Origin: Streptomyces albofaciens JCM 4342
GTDB lineage: Bacteria; Actinomycetota; Actinomycetes; Streptomycetales; Streptomycetaceae
Direction: 5' to 3'
Assembly (NCBI RefSeq): GCF_008634025.1
Contig: NZ_PDCM01000001.1
Coordinates: 2,477,501-2,541,500 of the forward strand
DNA: 64,000 nt
Of this stretch, positions 26,450 to 35,926 are shown piece by piece. The notes beneath the pieces are model-generated. The model saw only the letters and a program-made list of their open reading frames with translations. It had not been told where the DNA came from and ran no database searches. The translations under genes and the position numbers were made by a program. Position 1 is the first letter of the stretch, and every line of letters begins with the position of its first letter.

Positions 26450-27154
26450 TCAGCTCACTGCTCCGGTCACGACGGCCACCGGTACGGCGACGAAGCCCGC
26501 CGTCAGCACCAGGGCGAGGAGGTTGGCGACGGTCTTGAGCGCCCGGTCCCGGGCGGCGCTGCCCACGCCCAGCGTCTGCGCGGCGCTCCAGAACCCGTGC
26601 CGGACGTGCAGGCCGAGGGCGAGCATCGCCACGATGTAGAGCGTGGTGACGGGCCAGCGGTCGAAGGACGCGATCAGGTTCTCGTACGGGTGTCCGGCCT
26701 CGGCGTGCGGGTTCACCGTCAGCGTCGTCAGGTCGAGGATGTGCCAGACGATGAACAGCGCGAGGATGACGCCGCCCCAGCGCATGGTGCGGGTGGCGTA
26801 GCTGGTGCGCGCCTTCTTGTGCACGTACCCGCTCGGCCGCGCCTTGATGTCGCGGCGGCTGAGCTGGAAGGCGGCCACTCCGTGGGTCAGCACGGCGGCC
26901 AGCAGCACCACCCGCGCGATCCACAGGAACCACTCGTGGTGCAGGAAGGGTTCGCCGACGGTCCGCAGCCAGTGCGCGTAGCCGTTGAACTCGTCGGGGC
27001 CGAAGAAAATCTTGAGGTTGCCCATCATGTGCGCGACCAGGTACAGCAGCATCACCACGCCGCTGACCGCCATCGCGGTCTTCTTGCCGACGGTCGAGCG
27101 CCACAGCAGGCCCGCGAAGGACGGCCGCCGATCCGTCCGGGTGTCCAGTGCCAT
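26450..27154 (-). CDS. sdhC: Succinate dehydrogenase cytochrome b subunit (single fused anchor)
   Basis: Membrane anchor (234 aa) with five predicted helices and several membrane-placed histidines (in AHMMGN, THGVAAF, WHILDL and LHVRHGFW) that suit a di-haem cytochrome b. One such protein replaces the SdhC/SdhD pair in this enzyme class. It is the first gene of the sdhCAB operon and faces a divergently transcribed LysR gene 95 bp away, which is the obvious candidate regulator. Confidence 0.92.
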
Positions 27155-27214
27155 GGGTCCCGACGGTAGGGACCGACCGGCCCATCAGTCCAAGACATGG
27201 AACAGCTCATCTCC

Positions 27215-27229
27215 ATAGCCGCTGCCTAT
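27215..27229. promoter_or_regulatory. Possible LysR binding site in the sdhC/lysR gap
   Basis: ATAG-N7-CTAT fits the T-N11-A palindrome that LysR-type regulators bind. It lies 21 bp before the lysR start. A CCTATC direct repeat (27225 and 27235) is next to it. Autoregulation and control of sdhCAB are inferred. Confidence 0.45.
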
Positions 27230-27249
27230 CGACGCCTATCATCGGCCGT

Positions 27250-28152
27250 ATGCAGCTCCAGCAGCTCCGCTACTTCGCGGCGGTCGCCGACACCCGCCAC
27301 TTCACCCGCGCCGCCGAACGCGAGCACGTCGCACAGCCCTCGCTGTCGCAGCAGATCAGAGCCCTGGAACGGGAGCTGGGCGCCGAACTGTTCCACCGGG
27401 CGCGCGGCCACATCACCCTCACCGACGCGGGCCGTACGCTGCTGCCGCTGGCCCGCCGCATCCTCGCCGACACCGAGACAGCGCGGCGCGAGGTGCAGGA
27501 GGTGGCGCAGCTGCGGCGCGGCCGGCTGCGGCTCGGCGCGCCGCCGAGCCTGTGCGCGAGCCTGGTCCCGGACGTGCTGAGCGTCTTCCACACCGCGTAC
27601 CCGGGCGTGGACCTGGTCGTCCACGAGGACGGTTCGCAGGATCTCGTACGGGTCCTGGCGGCCGGCGAACTGGACCTCGCGCTCATCATCACCCCGCTCC
27701 CGGAGCAGGCCCCGGCGCTGGCCACCGCCGAACTGCTGCGGGAGGAACTGGTCGTGGTCTCGGCGCCGGACCGTCCGGCCCCGGCGCGGCGCGGGCGCCG
27801 GCTGCGCGTCGAAGACCTCCGGGACCACCCGCTGGCGATGTTCCGGCGCGGCTACGACCTGCGGGAGTTCACCGTGGCGGCCTGCCGCGCGGCCGGCTTC
27901 GAGCCGGTCTTCACCGTCGAGGGCGGCGAGATGGACGCGGTACTGGGGTTCGTCCGCGCCGGGCTGGGCGTCGCGGTGGTGCCCAGCATGGTCGCCGAAC
28001 GCTCCGGACTGCGCGTCACCCGCTTCGCCACCCCCGACATGCACCGGGTGATCTCGGTGGCCCACCGGGGAGATGTCTCGCCGCCGCGGGCCGCCCGCGA
28101 ACTCCGGCGCATTCTGCTGGGGCATCTGGGGCTGGAGATGCCCGGTGAGTGA
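27250..28152 (+). CDS. LysR family transcriptional regulator
   Basis: A 300-aa regulator. The N-terminal winged helix (MQLQQLRYFAAVADTRHFT, then QPSLSQQIRALERELG) is textbook LysR. Residues 90-295 form the periplasmic-binding-protein-like effector domain. It is divergent from sdhCAB (start-to-start about 95 bp), so it probably controls that operon and itself. It also lies 270 bp upstream of the five-gene island on the same strand, so control of that cluster is a second possibility. The effector is unknown. Confidence 0.93.
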   Translation: MQLQQLRYFAAVADTRHFTRAAEREHVAQPSLSQQIRALERELGAELFHRARGHITLTDAGRTLLPLARRILADTETARREVQEVAQLRRGRLRLGAPPSLCASLVPDVLSVFHTAYPGVDLVVHEDGSQDLVRVLAAGELDLALIITPLPEQAPALATAELLREELVVVSAPDRPAPARRGRRLRVEDLRDHPLAMFRRGYDLREFTVAACRAAGFEPVFTVEGGEMDAVLGFVRAGLGVAVVPSMVAERSGLRVTRFATPDMHRVISVAHRGDVSPPRAARELRRILLGHLGLEMPGE

Positions 28153-28422
28153 CGGTGTCCGGCGCATCGGTGGCGGTTTCTGATCCCCTGCGAGGGGGCG
28201 GTTTCCGGCCACGCGGAAGCAGGGGTGCGCGCGTCCGTACGGAGCGGCGCGCAGGTGGCAGGGGGCGCGAACCGGCGTGCGACACAGTGGTCCCAAGGTG
28301 AACAGACCGTTTTCGGGCAGAAGCAGGGGCGACCATTGCGCTTTCTACGTTTGCGGCGCTAAAAAAGCTGCATTCGCCCAATCGGCGGAACCGCAATGGA
28401 TTTACGGGGGGAAGATCCGAAA
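28153..28422. other. AT-richer leader before the five-gene island
   Basis: This 270-bp gap has an obviously lower GC content from about 28290 on, including a run of six A at 28363-28368. It likely holds the promoter of the island. No terminator for lysR and no clear -10/-35 pair could be fixed. Confidence 0.45.
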
Positions 28423-28995
28423 ATGCCGATGTTGCTGGAAGATGTGTACGCGGGAGCGCCGACCGTAAAATCGGGACGGCATCTCACCACCGTCAACGAA
28501 TTCACCGACCAATCACCCGCACTCCGCCCCGAGGTGCTCGCCGAGGCGACCCGGCGGCTGGTCGAACTGGGGGACTTCGAGGCCGGGAAGATCCTGGTCG
28601 AGGAGGACAAGGGCGCCATCCTCGGCAGCGCGGTCTCGCTGGCCGTGGGACTGCCGCTCGCGGTGGCCCGCTGGTACACCTACGACCTGGGCGGCCACGG
28701 CATCTCGGTGCCCATCGACAGCGAATACTTCACGGGCACGCTCTACATCAACGGCGTCGAACCGGGGGACCGGGTGACGATCGTCGACGACACGATCAGC
28801 ACCGGCGGCACCCTCGTCGCCCTGATCGAGGCCGTCCGGGCGGCCGGCGCACGGGTCGAGGAAGTCCTGGTGGCGGTGGAGAAGCCGGAGAACGGCGGCC
28901 GCGAGCGGATCGCCGCCCGCTTCGGCATCGCGGTCCGCTCGGTCATCCGCATCGCCGTCGACCCGGGCACCGGGCGCGTCGTCGTCCTGGGCTGA
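28423..28995 (+). CDS. Purine-type phosphoribosyltransferase (archaeal Hpt/Apt-like)
   Basis: A 190-aa type I phosphoribosyltransferase. The PRPP-binding motif VTIVDDTISTGGT is at 118-130. The preceding LYINGVEPGDR and the following LIEAVRAAGARVEEVLVAVEK strongly recall archaeal hypoxanthine/adenine PRTases rather than the housekeeping bacterial Apt or Hpt. The start at 28423 is preferred over 28396 because GGGGGAAG lies just before it. It is the first gene of a five-gene set. It may make a nucleotide from an unusual base or salvage a by-product; the substrate is not deducible. The opening codons include AAA, TTG and GAA, unlike the neighbours. Confidence 0.8.
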   Translation: MPMLLEDVYAGAPTVKSGRHLTTVNEFTDQSPALRPEVLAEATRRLVELGDFEAGKILVEEDKGAILGSAVSLAVGLPLAVARWYTYDLGGHGISVPIDSEYFTGTLYINGVEPGDRVTIVDDTISTGGTLVALIEAVRAAGARVEEVLVAVEKPENGGRERIAARFGIAVRSVIRIAVDPGTGRVVVLG

Positions 28996-29104
28996 GGCCG
29001 TACGGGAAACAGCGCCGCACACCGGCGCACCGCCTTTCCCCGGCGTTCCCACATTTTCCCGCACGCCGGAGCACAACCGTCCACGCCCGCCCGAGGAGTT
29101 TTGT

Positions 29105-30073
29105 GTGAGCACGACCGATCCCGGCGCCGAGACCGGCCGCACGGAATTGTACGAACTACGCCGCATCGCCGAGCCGGGAGCCGCCCGGATATTCGCCAAG
29201 TGTGAATTCCGCAATCCCACCGGCAGTCACAAGGACCGGGTCTTCTCCTACATGATCGACGAGCTGGAGAAAGCCGGGACGATCAGCCCCGGAATGACCC
29301 TGGTCGAATGCTCGACCGGAAACGGCGGTGCCGCGCTGTCCCGGGTCGGCGCACAACGCGGATATCGCATCGTCATCATCATGCCGGAAGGCATGACCGA
29401 GGAACGCAGGAAACAGATCGCGTCATGGGGCGGCACGGTCGTCGAGACCTCCGCGGACGGCTTCCTGCTGGAGGGCGAGGAGACCGCCCGGCGGTACACG
29501 GCCGAAAACCCCGGCAGCCACTTCCTCGACCAGTCCACCAATGACCTCAACTGGCGCGCGTGGCGCTCCTGCGGCCACGAGATCGTCACCGAGCTGCGCG
29601 CGGCCGGCCGGACCCCCGGCCACTTCATCTGCTCCCTCGGCACCGGCGGCACCTTCACCGGCATCGCCGACGTCCTCAAGGACGCCCACCCCGGCCTGCG
29701 CACCTGGGCCGTCGAGGTGGACCGCTCGGCCGCCCTCCACGCCAAGCGCAACGGCCTGCCCTTCGAGCACCACACCCACAACCTGATGGGCCTGGGCCCG
29801 GGCAAGGTCCCCTCCAACCTGCGCGAGGAACTCGTCGACGAGGTCGAACTGATCACCGGCGACGACGGCTGGAGCACCATGAAACGCCTCATCGCCGAGG
29901 AGGGCCTGCCCGTCGGGCCCACCGCGGGCGGCAACGTCTTCGCCGCCCAGCGGCTGGCCAGGAAGCTGCCGCCGGAAGAGGTCGTGGTCACCGTGCTGTT
30001 CGACTCCGCCTGGAAGTACTTCAGCATCTGGGACGGCCGGTACGACCGTTACCGTACGGAGCCGGACTCATGA
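29105..30073 (+). CDS. Cysteine-synthase-like PLP enzyme
   Basis: A 322-aa fold-type II PLP enzyme of the cysteine synthase / cystathionine beta-synthase group. The Schiff-base lysine is Lys43 in NPTGSHKDRV, where ordinary O-acetylserine sulfhydrylases have NPGGSVKDR. The substrate loop is ECSTGNGGAALS (CysK usually reads TSGNTG), and the phosphate cup is GTGGTFTG. These changes suggest a beta-replacement (or elimination) on a serine-type substrate with a non-sulfide nucleophile. It starts at GTG 29105 after GAGGAG and is coupled (ATGA) to the YggS-like gene. Confidence 0.85.
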   Translation: MSTTDPGAETGRTELYELRRIAEPGAARIFAKCEFRNPTGSHKDRVFSYMIDELEKAGTISPGMTLVECSTGNGGAALSRVGAQRGYRIVIIMPEGMTEERRKQIASWGGTVVETSADGFLLEGEETARRYTAENPGSHFLDQSTNDLNWRAWRSCGHEIVTELRAAGRTPGHFICSLGTGGTFTGIADVLKDAHPGLRTWAVEVDRSAALHAKRNGLPFEHHTHNLMGLGPGKVPSNLREELVDEVELITGDDGWSTMKRLIAEEGLPVGPTAGGNVFAAQRLARKLPPEEVVVTVLFDSAWKYFSIWDGRYDRYRTEPDS

Positions 30074-30822
30074 CCGCCGAGCGCCGGGCCGTGGGGGGCC
30101 CGGACGCCGCGAGCCGCCGGGCCACCGGGGAGCCCGGCGGCACCGCGGAACCCGGCGGCATCGCGGAGCGCCTGGCCGCCGTCGCCCGCCGCCTCGGCCT
30201 GGCCTGCGAGCGGGCCGGGGCGGCGCCCCGGGACGTGCGGTTCGTCGCCGTCAGCAAGTTCCACGGCACGCCCGCGCTCACCGCCGCCCTGGAAGCAGGC
30301 CACCGCCACTACGGCGAGAGCCGCGTACAGGAGGCCCGGCGCAAGTGGCCGCCGCTCCAGGAGCGCTACCCCGGCACCCGCCTCCACCTCATCGGCCCGC
30401 TCCAGACCAACAAGGCCGCCGCGGCCGTCGGGACGTTCGACGTCCTGCACAGCCTGGACCGCCCCCGCCTCGCCGCGGCCCTGGCCACCGCCATGGAGCG
30501 CACGGGCCGCCGCCCGGACTGCTTCGTGCAGGTCAACACCGGCGGCGAAGCGCACAAGAGCGGCGTTCCGGCAGCCGAGGCGGACGCGTTCGTCAAGGAG
30601 TGCGTGGGCACGTACGGGCTGCCCGTCGTCGGCCTGATGTGCATCCCGCCCTACGGCGGCGACCCCCGTCCGCACTTCCGGCTGCTGCGCGCCCTGGCCG
30701 CCGAACAGGGCCTGCGGCAGCTCAGTATGGGGATGAGCGCCGACTTCGAGACCGCGGTGGCGGAGGGCGCGACCACGGTCCGGGTCGGCGAGGCGGTCTT
30801 CGGGCCGCGCCCGCGTCCCTGA
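30070..30822 (+). CDS. YggS-family PLP-binding protein (paralogue)
   Basis: A 250-aa alanine-racemase-N-terminal-fold protein. Lys63 in FVAVSKFHG should bind PLP. GESRVQEA, HLIGPLQTNK, VNTGGEAHKSGV and LSMGMSADF are the family motifs. YggS proteins buffer PLP and affect amino acid homeostasis. Streptomycetes normally have one copy near ftsZ, so this one, carrying a 30-residue low-complexity N-terminus and embedded in a PLP-enzyme cluster, is likely a specialised paralogue. It might supply PLP or act as a racemase-like enzyme; the C-terminal racemase domain is absent. Confidence 0.85.
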   Translation: MTAERRAVGGPDAASRRATGEPGGTAEPGGIAERLAAVARRLGLACERAGAAPRDVRFVAVSKFHGTPALTAALEAGHRHYGESRVQEARRKWPPLQERYPGTRLHLIGPLQTNKAAAAVGTFDVLHSLDRPRLAAALATAMERTGRRPDCFVQVNTGGEAHKSGVPAAEADAFVKECVGTYGLPVVGLMCIPPYGGDPRPHFRLLRALAAEQGLRQLSMGMSADFETAVAEGATTVRVGEAVFGPRPRP

Positions 30823-30831
30823 GGAGCCACC

Positions 30832-31767
30832 GTGGCCGCGCTGTTCGTCTTCAGTCTCTTCTCCGCGCTGGTGGACGTCTTCGCCTCCGAGCGCCTGCAA
30901 CACGTGGACCCGGGGAGCGTGGCGGCGGTCGCCTTCACGCTCACCGGGGCGTTCTTCTGCCTGCTCACCGTCGTACGGCTGCGTCCGGCCCGGCTCCGCG
31001 CCGTCATCCGGGCGCACGCCGCCGACCTGGCCGTCCTCAACATCACCACCGCCGTCACCTGGCTGACCCTGCTGTACGCCCTCAAGCTCATGGAACCGGC
31101 CGTCGCCAATGTCGTGTCCATCGCCATCGGCCCGGCCTGCACCGTCCTCCTCCAGTTCCTGTGGTGGAAGCGGGACCGCGTCCTGCCGGGCGAACTCCTG
31201 TCCGCGCTGGGCATCCTGCTCACCCTGGCCGGCCTGGTCTGGGCGTCGCTGGACGGCCGCAGCGGCGTGGGGGACCGCGCCGCGCTCGCCATGACGCTGG
31301 GCCTGTGCGCCGCGGTCGCCTCCGGCGCCGGCGGGGCCGCCAACGTCGTCTTCTCCGCCCGCCTGGGCGCCGCCGGGGTGGACGTGCCCACCGTCATGGG
31401 CCTGCGGTTCGCCCTGGTGGCGGCCGTCGGCTGGACGCTGGCCGCGTTCTCCGGCACCGAGCAGCTGGGCCGGGCGCTGGTGCCGGGCGCGGTGGTGGCC
31501 GTCATCGGCGTCTCGATCCCCGCGTACCTGGTGCAGATCGGGGTGCGGAAGGTGACCCCGATGACCGCCGCCATGATCTGCTCGCTCGCCCCGGGCCTGA
31601 CCCTCCTGATCCAGCTGGCCGACGACCGGCTGACGTTCTCGGTGCCGTCGGCCGCCGGCATCGCCGTGATCACCGTCTTCATCGCGTTCGGGCTGCTGGC
31701 CCGGCGGGGCGCGCCCCCGGCCGCGGCGGTCCAGGAAGGCACACCCCATGCAGTGTCTGATCGTTGA
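30832..31767 (+). CDS. EamA/DMT-family exporter
   Basis: A 311-aa membrane protein with about ten predicted helices arranged as two EamA repeats. Drug/metabolite transporters of this type export amino acids and small metabolites. The GTG at 30832 follows a GGAG box, 9 bp after the previous stop. The end overlaps the ATP-grasp gene by 20 bp, showing close coupling. In this setting it is likely the exporter of, or resistance factor for, the cluster product. Confidence 0.85.
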   Translation: MAALFVFSLFSALVDVFASERLQHVDPGSVAAVAFTLTGAFFCLLTVVRLRPARLRAVIRAHAADLAVLNITTAVTWLTLLYALKLMEPAVANVVSIAIGPACTVLLQFLWWKRDRVLPGELLSALGILLTLAGLVWASLDGRSGVGDRAALAMTLGLCAAVASGAGGAANVVFSARLGAAGVDVPTVMGLRFALVAAVGWTLAAFSGTEQLGRALVPGAVVAVIGVSIPAYLVQIGVRKVTPMTAAMICSLAPGLTLLIQLADDRLTFSVPSAAGIAVITVFIAFGLLARRGAPPAAAVQEGTPHAVSDR

Positions 31768-33004
31768 CGCCTACTCCACCGGCCGCTTCCTGCCGGCCGC
31801 CCTCGCCGAACGCGGTGTCAAGTGCGTCCATGTGCAGAGTTCGCCGGACATCCCCGACTTCCTCCGGCGCACCTTCCCGCAGGGCGCCTTCACCGAGACC
31901 CTGATGTACGACGGCGACCTGGAGGCGCTGCTGGAGGCGGTCCGCCCGTCCGCCCCCGCCTTCGTCCTCCCCGGCAACGAGACCGCCGTCGACCTCACCG
32001 ACACCCTCGCCCGCCGCCTCGGCCTGCCCGGCAACGTCCCGGACGAGCGGCGGATACGGCGCGACAAGTACGACATGGCCATGGCCGTACGGGCCCACGG
32101 GCTGCGTGCCCCCGACACCCTGCGCACCTCCCGCTTCGACACCGCCTACGCCTGGGCCCGGGCGCACGGCCGGTGGCCGCTGGTGGTCAAGCCCGCCGAC
32201 AGCGCGGGCACCGACAACGTCTTCTTCTGCGCCGACCCGGTCGAGCTGTGCACCGCCTTCAACCACATCCTCGGTTCGCCCAACGTCCAGGGCGCCCGCA
32301 ACAAGACCGTCGTCCTCCAGGAACGCCTGGCCGGAACCGAGTACTTCGCCAACACCGTCAGCGTCGACGGACGCCACCACATCGCGGAGATCTGGCGCTA
32401 CCACAAGCGGCGCGGCCGCGGCGGGGCGGCGATCTACGACTACGAGGAGCCGCTGACCCCGGACGACCCCGCTGCCGCCGCCCTCAGGCCGTACCTCCTG
32501 GGCGTCCTGGACGCGCTCGGGGTACGGCACGGGCCCGCCCACTCCGAGGTCATGCTGACCGACGAGGGGCCCGTCCTGATCGAGACCGGCGCCCGGCTGG
32601 CCGGCAGCATCCTGCCGCACGTGGTCAGCCGCTGCTTCGGCACCGACCACGTGGAGCTGACGGCCCTGGCCGCCAGTGACCCGGCCGCCTTCGCCGCCCG
32701 CACCGCGGTCCCGGCCGAGCCCCGCACCGGGCTGCGCTACGTCTCGCTGATCTCCCCGTTCACCGGGCGGCTGACCTCCCTGGACGGGTTCGAGCGGCTG
32801 CGCGACCTGCCGTCGTACGCCGATCACTTCCTCGGCGTCCGGGCGGGCGACTACCTCAGCCCCACCGTCGACTCCACGACCTCGCCCGGCGTCTGCTACC
32901 TCCTGCACGAGGACGCGCGGCAGATCGAGGCGGACTACCGGCGGCTGCGCGCGCTGGAACTCCAGGAGCCGGGCGGCCTTTACGAGATCGCGCGGACCAG
33001 GTGA
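31748..33004 (+). CDS. ATP-grasp ligase (amino-acid ligase-like)
   Basis: A 418-aa ATP-grasp enzyme, the group that includes L-amino acid (dipeptide) ligases and carbamoyl-phosphate-synthase-like ligases. An N-terminal pre-ATP-grasp domain (about 1-105) is followed by the ATP-binding core with Lys148 in PLVVKPADSAGT and the QERLAGTEYF strand. Acidic metal ligands lie in HSEVMLTDEG (Glu267) and IETGARLAG (Glu279, Arg283). It should join a carboxylate to an amine through an acyl phosphate. Paired with two PLP proteins and an exporter, it suggests a dipeptide-like or amino-acid-derived product. Confidence 0.85.
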   Translation: MQCLIVDAYSTGRFLPAALAERGVKCVHVQSSPDIPDFLRRTFPQGAFTETLMYDGDLEALLEAVRPSAPAFVLPGNETAVDLTDTLARRLGLPGNVPDERRIRRDKYDMAMAVRAHGLRAPDTLRTSRFDTAYAWARAHGRWPLVVKPADSAGTDNVFFCADPVELCTAFNHILGSPNVQGARNKTVVLQERLAGTEYFANTVSVDGRHHIAEIWRYHKRRGRGGAAIYDYEEPLTPDDPAAAALRPYLLGVLDALGVRHGPAHSEVMLTDEGPVLIETGARLAGSILPHVVSRCFGTDHVELTALAASDPAAFAARTAVPAEPRTGLRYVSLISPFTGRLTSLDGFERLRDLPSYADHFLGVRAGDYLSPTVDSTTSPGVCYLLHEDARQIEADYRRLRALELQEPGGLYEIARTR

Positions 33005-33020
33005 GCAACCCGGGGGGAGG

Positions 33021-33050
33021 GCCCGGGGTGCGGCGATCAGCGCCCCGGGC
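33021..33050. terminator. Terminator between the island and the TIGR03085 gene
   Basis: GCCCGGGG (33021-33028) pairs with CCCCGGGC (33043-33050), and three further inner pairs are possible. It lies between convergent genes just after the ATP-grasp stop codon and just before the stop of the minus-strand gene. Confidence 0.65.
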
Positions 33051-33683
33051 TCACAGCCCCAGCGAGGCCTCCAGCACCCTGGCCACCGCGTCCTTGTCCC
33101 CGTCCAGCTCGACATCGGCCGCCGACTGCCGCCCGTAGACGAACAGCACCAGCTCGCCCGGCCCGCCGGTGGCCGTGACGACCGGGGTGCCGCGGTGGGC
33201 CACCGCGGTCTGGCCGTTCGGGCGGCGCAGCACCAGCCCCACCGGCGACTTGCGGCCCAGCACCCGCGCCATCTTCTCCAGGCGCGACCACAGCGCGTCC
33301 GAGAAGACCGGGTCCAGCTCGCGCGGCGTCCAGTCCGGCTGCGCCCGCCGTACGTCCTCGGCGTGCACATAGAACTCGACGGTGTTCGACGCCTCGTCGA
33401 TCTGCTTGAGCGCGAACGGCGACATCCGGGGCGGGCCGGTCCGGATCAGCCGCACCAGCTCGTCGTACGGCTTCGCGGCGAACTCCCGCTGCACCCGCTC
33501 CAGACGGCCCGCCAGCGGCTTGATCAGCAGGCCGCCGGCCGCGTCCGCGCGCCGCTCGCGCACCACCACGTGGGCGGCGAGGTCGCGGGCCGTCCAGCCC
33601 TCGCACAGTGTCGGCGCGTCGGGCCCGGCACCCTCCAGCAGGTCCGCCAGCAGCAGCCGTTCACGGTTCGCATGGGTCGACAT
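33051..33683 (-). CDS. TIGR03085 family metal-binding protein
   Basis: A 210-aa protein of the TIGR03085 family within the mycothiol-dependent maleylpyruvate isomerase / DinB-like group. The start [32 protein letters not shown] (His in the four-helix metal site), [18 protein letters not shown] and the small C-terminal beta domain with [13 protein letters not shown] are all typical. The substrate is unknown. It is a common neighbour of the his/trp genes in Streptomyces as far as I recall, so the island appears to be inserted next to an otherwise normal region. Confidence 0.9.
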
Positions 33684-33786
33684 GGGGCCAGCCTACGGGC
33701 GGGCGCCGACCGGTGCCACGGTGCCGCGCGGCCCTGTCGCGCCGGATGTGTCCGGATCGCGTCGCGGGCACCGCGGCCGCACCGCC

Positions 33787-33906
33787 TCAGCTCCGCAGCA
33801 GCAGGACGGCGGCGACCACCAGCCCGGCGACGAAGATCGCGAGCAGCACCACCGACGCGACCTTCGCCGTGCGGTCGGCGTCCGGAGGCGGCGGCTGGCG
33901 GGTCAT
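33787..33906 (-). CDS. Small single-helix membrane protein
   Basis: A possible 39-aa protein: a short Pro/Asp-rich start ([15 protein letters not shown]), then one hydrophobic helix ([22 protein letters not shown]). No clear ribosome-binding site precedes the ATG at 33906. The sharp cytoplasmic-plus-helix layout is better than chance sequence, and small proteins of this sort are common beside hisI. The role is unknown. Confidence 0.5.
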
Positions 33907-34026
33907 GGGTGCAGCATGCCGTACGCCGCCCGCTCGCGTGCGCCGACGGGACAGCCCCGGCGGCGCACACTGCCCGGCGCACGCGGCCCGGCGCACGGGT
34001 GGCCCGCCGCACGGCACAATGGGGCC

Positions 34027-34392
34027 ATGAGCAGCCGCGTCCTGGATTCCCAGCTCGACCCCGCCGTCGCCGCCCGCCTCAAGCGCGACGCCGACGGCCT
34101 GGTCCCCGCCATCGCCCAGCAGTACGACACCGGCGAGGTGCTGATGCTCGGCTGGATGGACGACGAGGCGCTGCACCGCACGCTCACCACCGGCCGCTGC
34201 ACGTACTGGAGCCGCAGCCGTCAGGAGTACTGGGTCAAGGGCGACACGTCCGGCCACGTCCAGCACGTGAAGTCCGTCGCCCTGGACTGCGACGCGGACA
34301 CGATCCTGGTGAAGGTCGACCAGGTCGGCGCGGCCTGCCACACCGGCGCCCGCACCTGCTTCGATGAGGATGTGCTCAGCGAAGGGCAGTAG
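34027..34392 (+). CDS. hisI: Phosphoribosyl-AMP cyclohydrolase
   Basis: Zinc- and magnesium-dependent cyclohydrolase (121 aa) for step three of histidine synthesis. The Zn-binding cysteines are Cys88 in VALDCDAD, and Cys104 and Cys111 in [12 protein letters not shown]. It lacks the fused HisE domain, as expected for a monofunctional actinobacterial HisI. It is separated from the main his operon by 12 kb and ends only 10 bp before trpE, so the two are probably co-transcribed. Confidence 0.96.
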
Positions 34393-34402
34393 GCTCCGCG
34401 CC

Positions 34403-35926
34403 ATGACCTCGGGAACCACCGGCACCGCCACACCGGACCTGGAGAACTTCCGTACGCTCGCGAAGGACCGCCGGGTCATTCCCGTCACCCGGCGCCTGCT
34501 CGCCGACGGCGACACCCCGGTGGGCCTCTACCGCAAGCTGGCCGCCGAACGGCCGGGCACCTTCCTGCTCGAATCGGCCGAAAACGGCCGCACCTGGTCC
34601 CGCTACTCCTTCATCGGCGTGCGCAGCGCCGCCACCCTGACCGTGCGCGACGGGCAGGCCCACTGGCTGGGCACCCCGCCGGTCGGCGTGCCCACCGACG
34701 GCGACCCGCTGGCCGCGCTGCGCGCCACCGTCGAGGCCCTGCACACCCCCCGGGACCTCATGGAGGGCCAGGGCCTGCCGCCGTTCACCGGCGGCATGGT
34801 CGGCTACCTCGGCTACGACATCGTGCGCCGGCTGGAGAAGATCGGCGACAGTACCGCGGACGACCTAGGGCTGCCCGAGCTGACCATGCTGCTCACCTCC
34901 GACCTGGCCGTACTGGACCACTGGAACGGCACGGTCCTGCTGATCGCCAACGCCATCAACCACAACGACCTGGAAACGGGCGTGGACGAGGCGTACGCGG
35001 ACGCCGTGGCCCGCCTGGACACCATGGCCTACGACCTGGCCCGCCCGGCCCCCGCGAGCGCCGCGGCCCTGCCGCCGTCCGAACTGCCCCCGTACACGGC
35101 GAAGTGGGGCGGCGCGTCGTACCAGGAGGCGGTCGAGGACATCAAGGAGCGCATCCGCGCGGGCGACGCCTTCCAGGTCGTACCGTCCCAGCGCTTCGAA
35201 ACCGCCTGCACCGCCTCGGCGTTGGACGTCTACCGGGTGCTGCGCGCCACCAACCCCAGCCCGTACATGTACCTGCTGCGCTTCGAGGACGGCGTCGACG
35301 TGGTCGGCTCCAGCCCGGAGGCGCTGGTCAAGGTGGAGGACGGGCGGGCCACGCTGCACCCCATCGCCGGCACCCGGCCGCGCGGCGCGAGCGTCCCGGA
35401 GGACCAGGCCCTGGCCGACGAGCTGATGGCCGACCCCAAGGAGCGCGCCGAGCATCTGATGCTCGTCGACCTCGGCCGCAACGACCTGGGCCGGGTCTGC
35501 GAACCCGGCAGCGTCGAGGTCGTCGACTTCATGTCCATCGAGCGCTACAGCCACGTCATGCACATCGTCTCCACGGTGACCGGCCGGCTGGCGCCCGGCC
35601 GCACCGCCTTCGACGTGCTCACCGCCTGCTTCCCGGCGGGCACCCTCTCCGGCGCCCCCAAGCCGCGCGCGATGCAGATCATCGAGGAACTGGAGCCCAG
35701 CCGACGCGGCCTGTACGGCGGCTGCGTCGGCTACCTGGACTTCGCCGGGGACTCCGACACCGCCATCGCGATCCGCACCGCGCTGCTGCGCGACGGCACG
35801 GCGTACGTCCAGGCGGGCGCGGGCGTCGTCGCGGACTCCGACCCGGTGGCGGAGGACACGGAGTGCCGCAACAAGGCGGCGGCGGTGCTGCGGGCGGTGC
35901 ACACGGCCAATGGGCTGGGTGCCTGA
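34403..35926 (+). CDS. trpE: Anthranilate synthase component I
   Basis: Converts chorismate to anthranilate using glutamine-derived ammonia (507 aa). The N-terminal half contains the LLES tryptophan-feedback motif (in [12 protein letters not shown]). The C-terminal chorismate-binding domain shows [21 protein letters not shown] and [13 protein letters not shown]. No amidotransferase domain is fused, so a separate TrpG must come from elsewhere; it is not in this window. The start at 34403 is chosen since the family N-terminus begins there. Confidence 0.96.

Follow-up and report, generated by a model that had tools for sequence, protein, structure and literature searches.

A five-gene cassette in Streptomyces albofaciens that pairs a purine-type phosphoribosyltransferase with a cysteine synthase-like enzyme

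The analysed window, a 64,000-nucleotide stretch of the Streptomyces albofaciens JCM 4342 genome (contig NZ_PDCM01000001.1, positions 2,477,501 to 2,541,500), contains a compact cassette of five genes that encode a phosphoribosyltransferase (PRT), a cysteine synthase-like enzyme (CysK-like), a YggS-family protein, an EamA-type transporter and an L-amino-acid ligase (LAL). The cassette recurs in several phyla and is almost certainly a functional unit, in which PRT and the CysK-like enzyme form the core, EamA is the exporter, and LAL and YggS are add-ons. Its product is probably an exported amino acid or dipeptide and, more tentatively, may be a purine-alanine conjugate. All five open reading frames (ORFs) are intact and lie on the plus strand:

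28423..28995, plus strand: PRT, purine-type type I phosphoribosyltransferase of the PRK12560 family, 190 residues
29105..30073, plus strand: CysK-like, fold-type-II pyridoxal phosphate (PLP) enzyme of a distinct clade, 322 residues (PF00291)
30070..30822, plus strand: YggS-family PLP-binding protein, second copy in the genome (TIGR00044)
30832..31767, plus strand: EamA-type (DMT superfamily) exporter, 311 residues (PF00892, two stretches)
31748..33004, plus strand: LAL, L-amino-acid ligase of the ATP-grasp type, 418 residues (PRK07206)

Recurrence and distribution

A profile scan of genome contigs with the PRT alignment identified 39 loci, which are not independent of each other (5 Photorhabdus, 9 Pseudomonas and 6 Streptomyces full-cassette loci are close kin). 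A CysK-like gene (>150 residues) lies beside PRT in 32 of the 39 loci, one of which (Pantoea) stops at a contig edge; EamA is found in 30, LAL in 27, full-length YggS in 10 and an additional PurF-like gene in two. The seven loci without a CysK-like gene are those of S. niger, two Paenibacillus and four haloarchaea. The hosts include Streptomyces, Sorangium, Pseudomonas, Photorhabdus, Yersinia, Edwardsiella and Vibrio, with flanks that differ between genera, and the cassette genes mostly overlap or nearly touch. The gene order is PRT-CysK-(YggS)-EamA-LAL in Streptomyces and Sorangium, and CysK-PRT-(YggS)-EamA-LAL in Proteobacteria. All five genes are present in Vibrio sagamiensis, and no match to LAL was found within the Marinomonas and Stutzerimonas loci. 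Compared to the proteobacterial loci, the proteins of the window share 46–58% sequence identity for PRT, 47–52% for CysK-like, 31–37% for LAL and, where matched, 23–30% for EamA. Where public names are given to cassette members, they are mostly phosphoribosyltransferase and cysteine synthase family proteins.

A lack of recurrence in other genomes had been named beforehand, in an earlier note on this DNA, as an outcome that would refute a five-gene cluster; the loci instead display recurrence in several phyla, with different neighbours. The five genes do form a recurring unit, but the set is not fixed: it consists of the core PRT and CysK-like genes (with EamA), an optional YggS and an added LAL.

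The PRT family (E ≤ 1e-15) is present in 6 of 392 Streptomyces genomes, of which five have the cassette and the sixth (G372) has a PRT-kinase fusion. In samples of the actinobacterial phylum and of the Sorangium phylum, PRT was found only in the window's own genome (1 of 396) and in the centre genome (1 of 235), respectively. Among 72,556 plasmid records, two contain a PRT relative, with 46–50% identity. At the same site in other Streptomyces, 29 of 29 loci are free of cassette genes over the flank that is available, which extends to at most 1.5 kb; hisI adjoins the TIGR03085 gene in 28 of them. The cassette is rare and accessory, and it is horizontally spread.

Several loci have features of their own. 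The S. niger site (L063:10001-11781) retains PRT and YggS with no recognisable CysK-like, EamA or LAL, and is a decayed cassette. Four Photorhabdus loci (L066, L067, L068 and L074, about 7.3-8.6 kb) show, immediately upstream of the complete cassette, the remains of another one, consisting of a short CysK or PRT piece and a full-length EamA. Importers near the cassette differ by host, with peptide-type ABC systems in Photorhabdus and P. karstica, and FecCD-type systems in Y. similis and E. ictaluri. In a Pyrinomonadaceae metagenome-assembled genome (MAG; L092:279-4099), the PRT-CysK pair is accompanied by a free condensation domain, a TauD-type protein, a cupin_8 protein and a small protein with a tRNA-binding domain. 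The haloarchaeal PRT loci (L086, L090, L091 and L093, about 10 kb) have no CysK-like gene adjoining; a UbiA-type prenyltransferase lies next to PRT in L086, with homologues there in the other three.

PRT-CysK core and natural fusions

Both Pfam domains, PRT and CysK-like, are found on one polypeptide in 32 of the 120 listed CysK-like homologues. When a fused protein was used as query, with the 7999 candidates sharing most words scored, 35 of the best 120 of 129 passing matches carried both domains, and these are largely the same proteins; none of these 120 additionally included LAL or PurF as a third part. Several fusions are encoded on contigs at least 200 kb long, which makes an assembly error unlikely, and six fused sequences in the tree group as a single clade (SH-aLRT 99). 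In a named MAG (L065), the fused gene is directly followed by EamA, with no match to LAL in the 20-kb locus. Over 27 loci, the pairwise distances of PRT and CysK-like are correlated with r = 0.943, and those among four of the genes with r of 0.88–0.97; calculated without species-tree control, these correlations show shared history only. The fusions, together with a near-constant adjacency while LAL and YggS vary, argue that PRT and the CysK-like enzyme act in successive steps.

Phosphoribosyltransferase

PRT has a purine phosphoribosyltransferase fold of the xanthine (XPRT)/adenine (APRT) type; XPRT, APRT and orotate phosphoribosyltransferase (OPRT) all match, and the PurR repressor is also among the fold matches. 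PRT scores 190.6 bits against PRK12560 (NF009211, cut-off 188), whose name, 'adenine phosphoribosyltransferase', rests to our knowledge on homology only. The archaeal type suggested by the earlier note was not borne out, since the archaeal HPT model (NF040646) gives 125.8 against a cut-off of 200. The score for the apt equivalog is 52.1 (cut-off 185.85). Other family members fall on both sides of the NF009211 cut-off, with Vibrio (266.9) and Paenibacillus (198) above, and Natrinema (183.9) and Pyrinomonadaceae (162.8) below it.

The cassette PRT shares its fold and the phosphoribosyl pyrophosphate (PRPP) motif with adenine and xanthine phosphoribosyltransferases, and is ~26% identical to bacterial APRT. 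It contains a nearly invariant glutamate in the flexible loop (SEY), which resembles the catalytic glutamate of APRT. It is distinguished from APRT and XPRT by its own conserved stretches, TTVNEFTDQxPALRP and EEDKG. The host genome also contains an ordinary APRT.

The PurF-like copies (L064:4984-6393 and L092:6240-7694) are placed 149 bp behind LAL in Sorangium and behind a YggS fragment in the Pyrinomonadaceae MAG. Both genomes have another, better-scoring PurF elsewhere, which in the MAG is truncated at the end of a contig. In the Sorangium copy behind the cassette, Cys1 of the glutaminase and the RGTT segment of the PRPP loop are missing; in the Pyrinomonadaceae copy, Cys1 and the PRPP loop are both kept.

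The same PRT family is also found in a different cluster type, in two Paenibacillus loci (L075 and L077, about 4.8-14 kb) and in Streptomyces G372 (L096:7872-12629). This second type comprises a ketosynthase, an AMP-ligase, PRT and a thymidylate-kinase-like domain, which adjoins PRT in Paenibacillus and is fused to it in G372 and in P0265. The Paenibacillus clusters also contain a second phosphoribosyltransferase (OPRT-like by eye), and L077, the one tested for it, has an IMP-cyclohydrolase-like gene. This cluster type looks like a pathway to a nucleotide natural product.

CysK-like enzyme and YggS

The CysK-like enzyme scores well below the cut-offs of the curated CysK/CysM cysteine synthase models (215.6 vs 350.95 for TIGR01139, 216.3 vs 344.15 for TIGR01136, and 152 vs 394.2 for TIGR01138) and of the SbnA 2,3-diaminopropionate family (TIGR03945, 150.9 vs 349.95). 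It matches O-ureido-L-serine synthase (PDB code 3x43) with an E-value of 1.7e-39. In the phylogenetic tree it is separated from five paralogues of the same genome, and its clade has 28 clade-specific positions. In this clade the asparagine loop TSGNTG is replaced by STGNGG and, among the aligned sequences shown, QF/QY by QS/QA/QG; such changes would suit a nucleophile different from sulfide. YggS scores 145.6 against TIGR00044 (cut-off 106.25); the other YggS copy of the host genome is at G000:C1:2461352.

L-amino-acid ligase

LAL scores 373.7 bits against PRK07206 (cut-off 302) and 31.9 against ATP-grasp_4 (cut-off 27), with LAL_C2 just below its cut-off (28.3 vs 29.4). It matches an 'L-amino acid ligase' (PDB code 30vh) over nearly its whole length (residues 10-410, E 9e-80), and matches the L-amino-acid ligases BL00235 (E 7e-19) and BacD only in part. 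After PRK07206, the best curated model is the dapdiamide synthase DdaF (NF041595), with a score of 203 that is far below the cut-off of 840. PDB 30vh groups with the non-cassette ligases in the LAL tree, and we know of no solved or assayed member among the 27 cassette ligases.

LAL was rejected as a marker of the cassette, as LAL-like matches were found in 144 of the 199 genomes searched. Of the 20 LAL loci for which a longer stretch was read (19-20 kb for 17, less for three), those of S. rimosus and S. violens alone contain the cassette. In a tree of 27 cassette and 28 other ligases, which includes long branches, cassette membership requires two changes and a single clade is rejected (AU test, p = 0.026); for 18 loci the non-cassette label comes from these longer stretches, and for nine (L022-L030) from 1.5 kb at each side. 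This is modest evidence that LAL joined the core at least twice, which would mean that the core product was repeatedly worth ligating. At L043:9400-11483, in a locus with no match to PRT or CysK-like, an EamA gene (36% identical to that of the window) adjoins a ligase that shares 64% identity with PDB 30vh, which suggests that EamA and LAL are a module of their own.

Locus organization

Two further features lie upstream of the cassette:

27250..28152, plus strand: LysR regulator (PF00126/PF03466)
28290..28422, plus strand: AT-rich leader, possible promoter or leader region, marked by a drop in GC

The arrangement described in the earlier note largely agrees with the ORF coordinates. PRT and CysK-like are 109 bp apart, and the last four genes are packed with a 4-bp ATGA overlap, a 9-bp gap and a 20-bp overlap. 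The family assignments (Pribosyltran, PALP, Ala_racemase_N/YggS, EamA and ATP-grasp_4) and the LysR gene as left boundary also hold, as does the AT-richer DNA ahead of the genes: the GC content of 28290-28422 is 55.6%, compared to 72.7% for the window, and only one of 481 tiles of 133 bp is equally low, perhaps overlapping the leader itself. A terminator proposed as the right boundary was not recovered. In a consensus scan of 28100-33150, none was present at the right end, and the sole terminator-like site, compared to 1.5 obtained from shuffles, is a minus-strand one at 30426-30414. A consensus scan of the leader found no sigma-70 consensus, and no Rfam match was obtained in 27000-34600 at E up to 1. 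In eight other loci, a search for riboswitches and leader RNAs gave four Rfam matches, none of them closer to the cassette than several kb.

Alternative PRT starts are ATG 28396 and ATG 28429, and most aligned homologues begin where 28429 lies. Only the five cassette genes are located between LysR and a minus-strand TIGR03085 gene, which is followed by hisI- and trpE-like genes (named by eye). The host genome is 9.25 Mb. The nearest named locus is that of S. rimosus NRRL WC-3904, with proteins 94-96% identical (YggS 91%). The spacing of the last four genes is identical in three of six other Streptomyces full-cassette loci, and the 20-bp EamA/LAL overlap is kept in all six. LysR adjoins the cassette in four named Streptomyces loci and in the decayed S. 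niger locus, and is a possible regulator of the cassette; it has no match in the S. morookaense locus, and the S. rimosus contig stops short of its position.

Proposed pathway and alternatives

An amino-acid product is indicated by the combination of a PALP-family enzyme, LAL and EamA, and a link to purines by the XPRT/APRT-type fold, the PurF-like genes and the second cluster type. As no base-making gene is among the five, any base would come from primary metabolism. We infer both a purine, the simplest choice for the PRT fold, and the direction of the PRT step. In the pathway that we tentatively prefer, the core would make a beta-substituted alanine, most simply a purine-alanine from O-acetylserine. 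PRT, run towards base release, would convert a nucleotide and pyrophosphate to the free purine; the CysK-like enzyme would convert O-acetyl-L-serine (or O-phosphoserine) to aminoacrylate-PLP and add a purine nitrogen to it, giving purinyl-alanine. By analogy with their families, LAL may then join purinyl-alanine to a second amino acid to form a dipeptide, and EamA may export the amino acid or dipeptide; YggS would look after PLP. The suggestion in the earlier note that the set could make and export a dipeptide-like or base-amino-acid compound agrees with this evidence, and the PRT-CysK fusions strengthen it.

The direction of the PRT step can also be reversed. The CysK-like enzyme could make a heterocyclic or amine-bearing beta-substituted alanine, which PRT would phosphoribosylate with PRPP to a nucleotide-like amino acid, to be trimmed by host phosphatases before export. 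Phosphoribosyltransferases are generally favoured in the PRPP-forward direction, and the relatives fused to a thymidylate-kinase-like domain (P0265; L096) fit a nucleotide product; these fusions lean towards a nucleotide-forming PRT and weigh against base release. The cassette itself leans the other way, as the five genes include no phosphatase, kinase or special-base gene, and EamA proteins are not known as nucleotide exporters. We consider the reversed order doubtful. Alternatively, PRT, with PurF where present, might handle phosphoribosylamine or a small nitrogen nucleophile, and the CysK-like enzyme, in the manner of SbnA-type enzymes, would then form an amino acid of the 2,3-diaminopropionate type. 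The PurF-like genes in two of the 39 loci, one with Cys1 and the PRPP loop intact, would suit this, as would DdaF as second-best curated model of LAL. It is nevertheless improbable, given the SbnA score (150.9 against 349.95), the lack of an SbnB-like gene among the five, the apparently altered catalytic residues of the Sorangium PurF-like copy and the APRT/XPRT-type fold of PRT.

PRT might instead stand outside the synthesis, as a protective, salvage or sensing protein that clears a base analogue or senses PRPP, with CysK-like, LAL and EamA alone making and exporting the product. A special PRT next to an ordinary APRT in the genome could confer self-protection, and PurR is among the fold matches; against this are the fusion to CysK-like and the near-constant adjacency while LAL and YggS vary, and no DNA-binding domain was found by Pfam in the 190-residue PRT. 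We give this little credence. Each family has common housekeeping members, and APRT, YggS and PALP paralogues occur elsewhere in the genome, so the five genes might be housekeeping paralogues for purine salvage, cysteine synthesis and PLP homeostasis that are neighbours by chance. The recurrence across phyla, fusion, rarity and accessory placement make this extremely unlikely, and it was rejected.

Relation to known systems

In the D-cycloserine (dcs) cluster of Streptomyces, too, an ATP-grasp enzyme and an EamA-type exporter accompany a CysK-like enzyme whose substrate is O-acetylserine (DcsD; compare PDB 3x43), but the cluster is not known to contain a PRT or YggS. The ATP-grasp enzyme of the cassette is an L-amino-acid ligase, and between LysR and the TIGR03085 gene the cassette has no arginase-, DAP-epimerase- or serine-acetyltransferase-like gene of the dcs definition. 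The dapdiamide cluster also has a dipeptide ligase from the same broad ATP-grasp family, together with PLP-dependent beta-replacement on serine-derived substrates; however, it is not known to include a purine phosphoribosyltransferase, and the cassette proteins fall below the DdaF and SbnA cut-offs. The plant beta-(N-heterocyclyl)alanine synthases (willardiine, lupinic acid), which are CysK-family enzymes that add a ring nitrogen to aminoacrylate, are similar in chemistry, and we know of no phosphoribosyltransferase partner for them.

No published description of the gene set was found in open-access full text (subscription papers and bioRxiv were outside the search), which is no proof of novelty; the matching passages of PMC13338154 mention neither PDB 30vh nor the cassette gene set.

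Implications

The cassette is present in the S. rimosus group of industrial antibiotic producers, in Pseudomonas, and in insect- and fish-associated bacteria. A more far-reaching proposal, which we regard as rather unlikely, is a bacterial pathway dedicated to making nucleobase amino acids, in which PRT would pass a purine directly to the fused or partner CysK-like enzyme and the resulting purinyl-alanine would be hidden by a ligase in a dipeptide that rival bacteria import and cleave; the PurF-like gene, in the clusters that have one, would then mark purine synthesis as the target, or serve self-protection. Purinyl-alanine resembles the building blocks of alanyl peptide nucleic acids.

As far as we found, no coupling of a phosphoribosyltransferase to O-acetylserine-type PLP chemistry is known, and the natural fusions make such a coupling directly testable with one purified protein. 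If the purine assignment is true, the cassette would provide genetically encoded nucleobase amino acids and a new class of antimetabolites. Even otherwise, it is a defined, rare and horizontally spread cassette, whose PRT-CysK pair is a sharp signature for genome mining.

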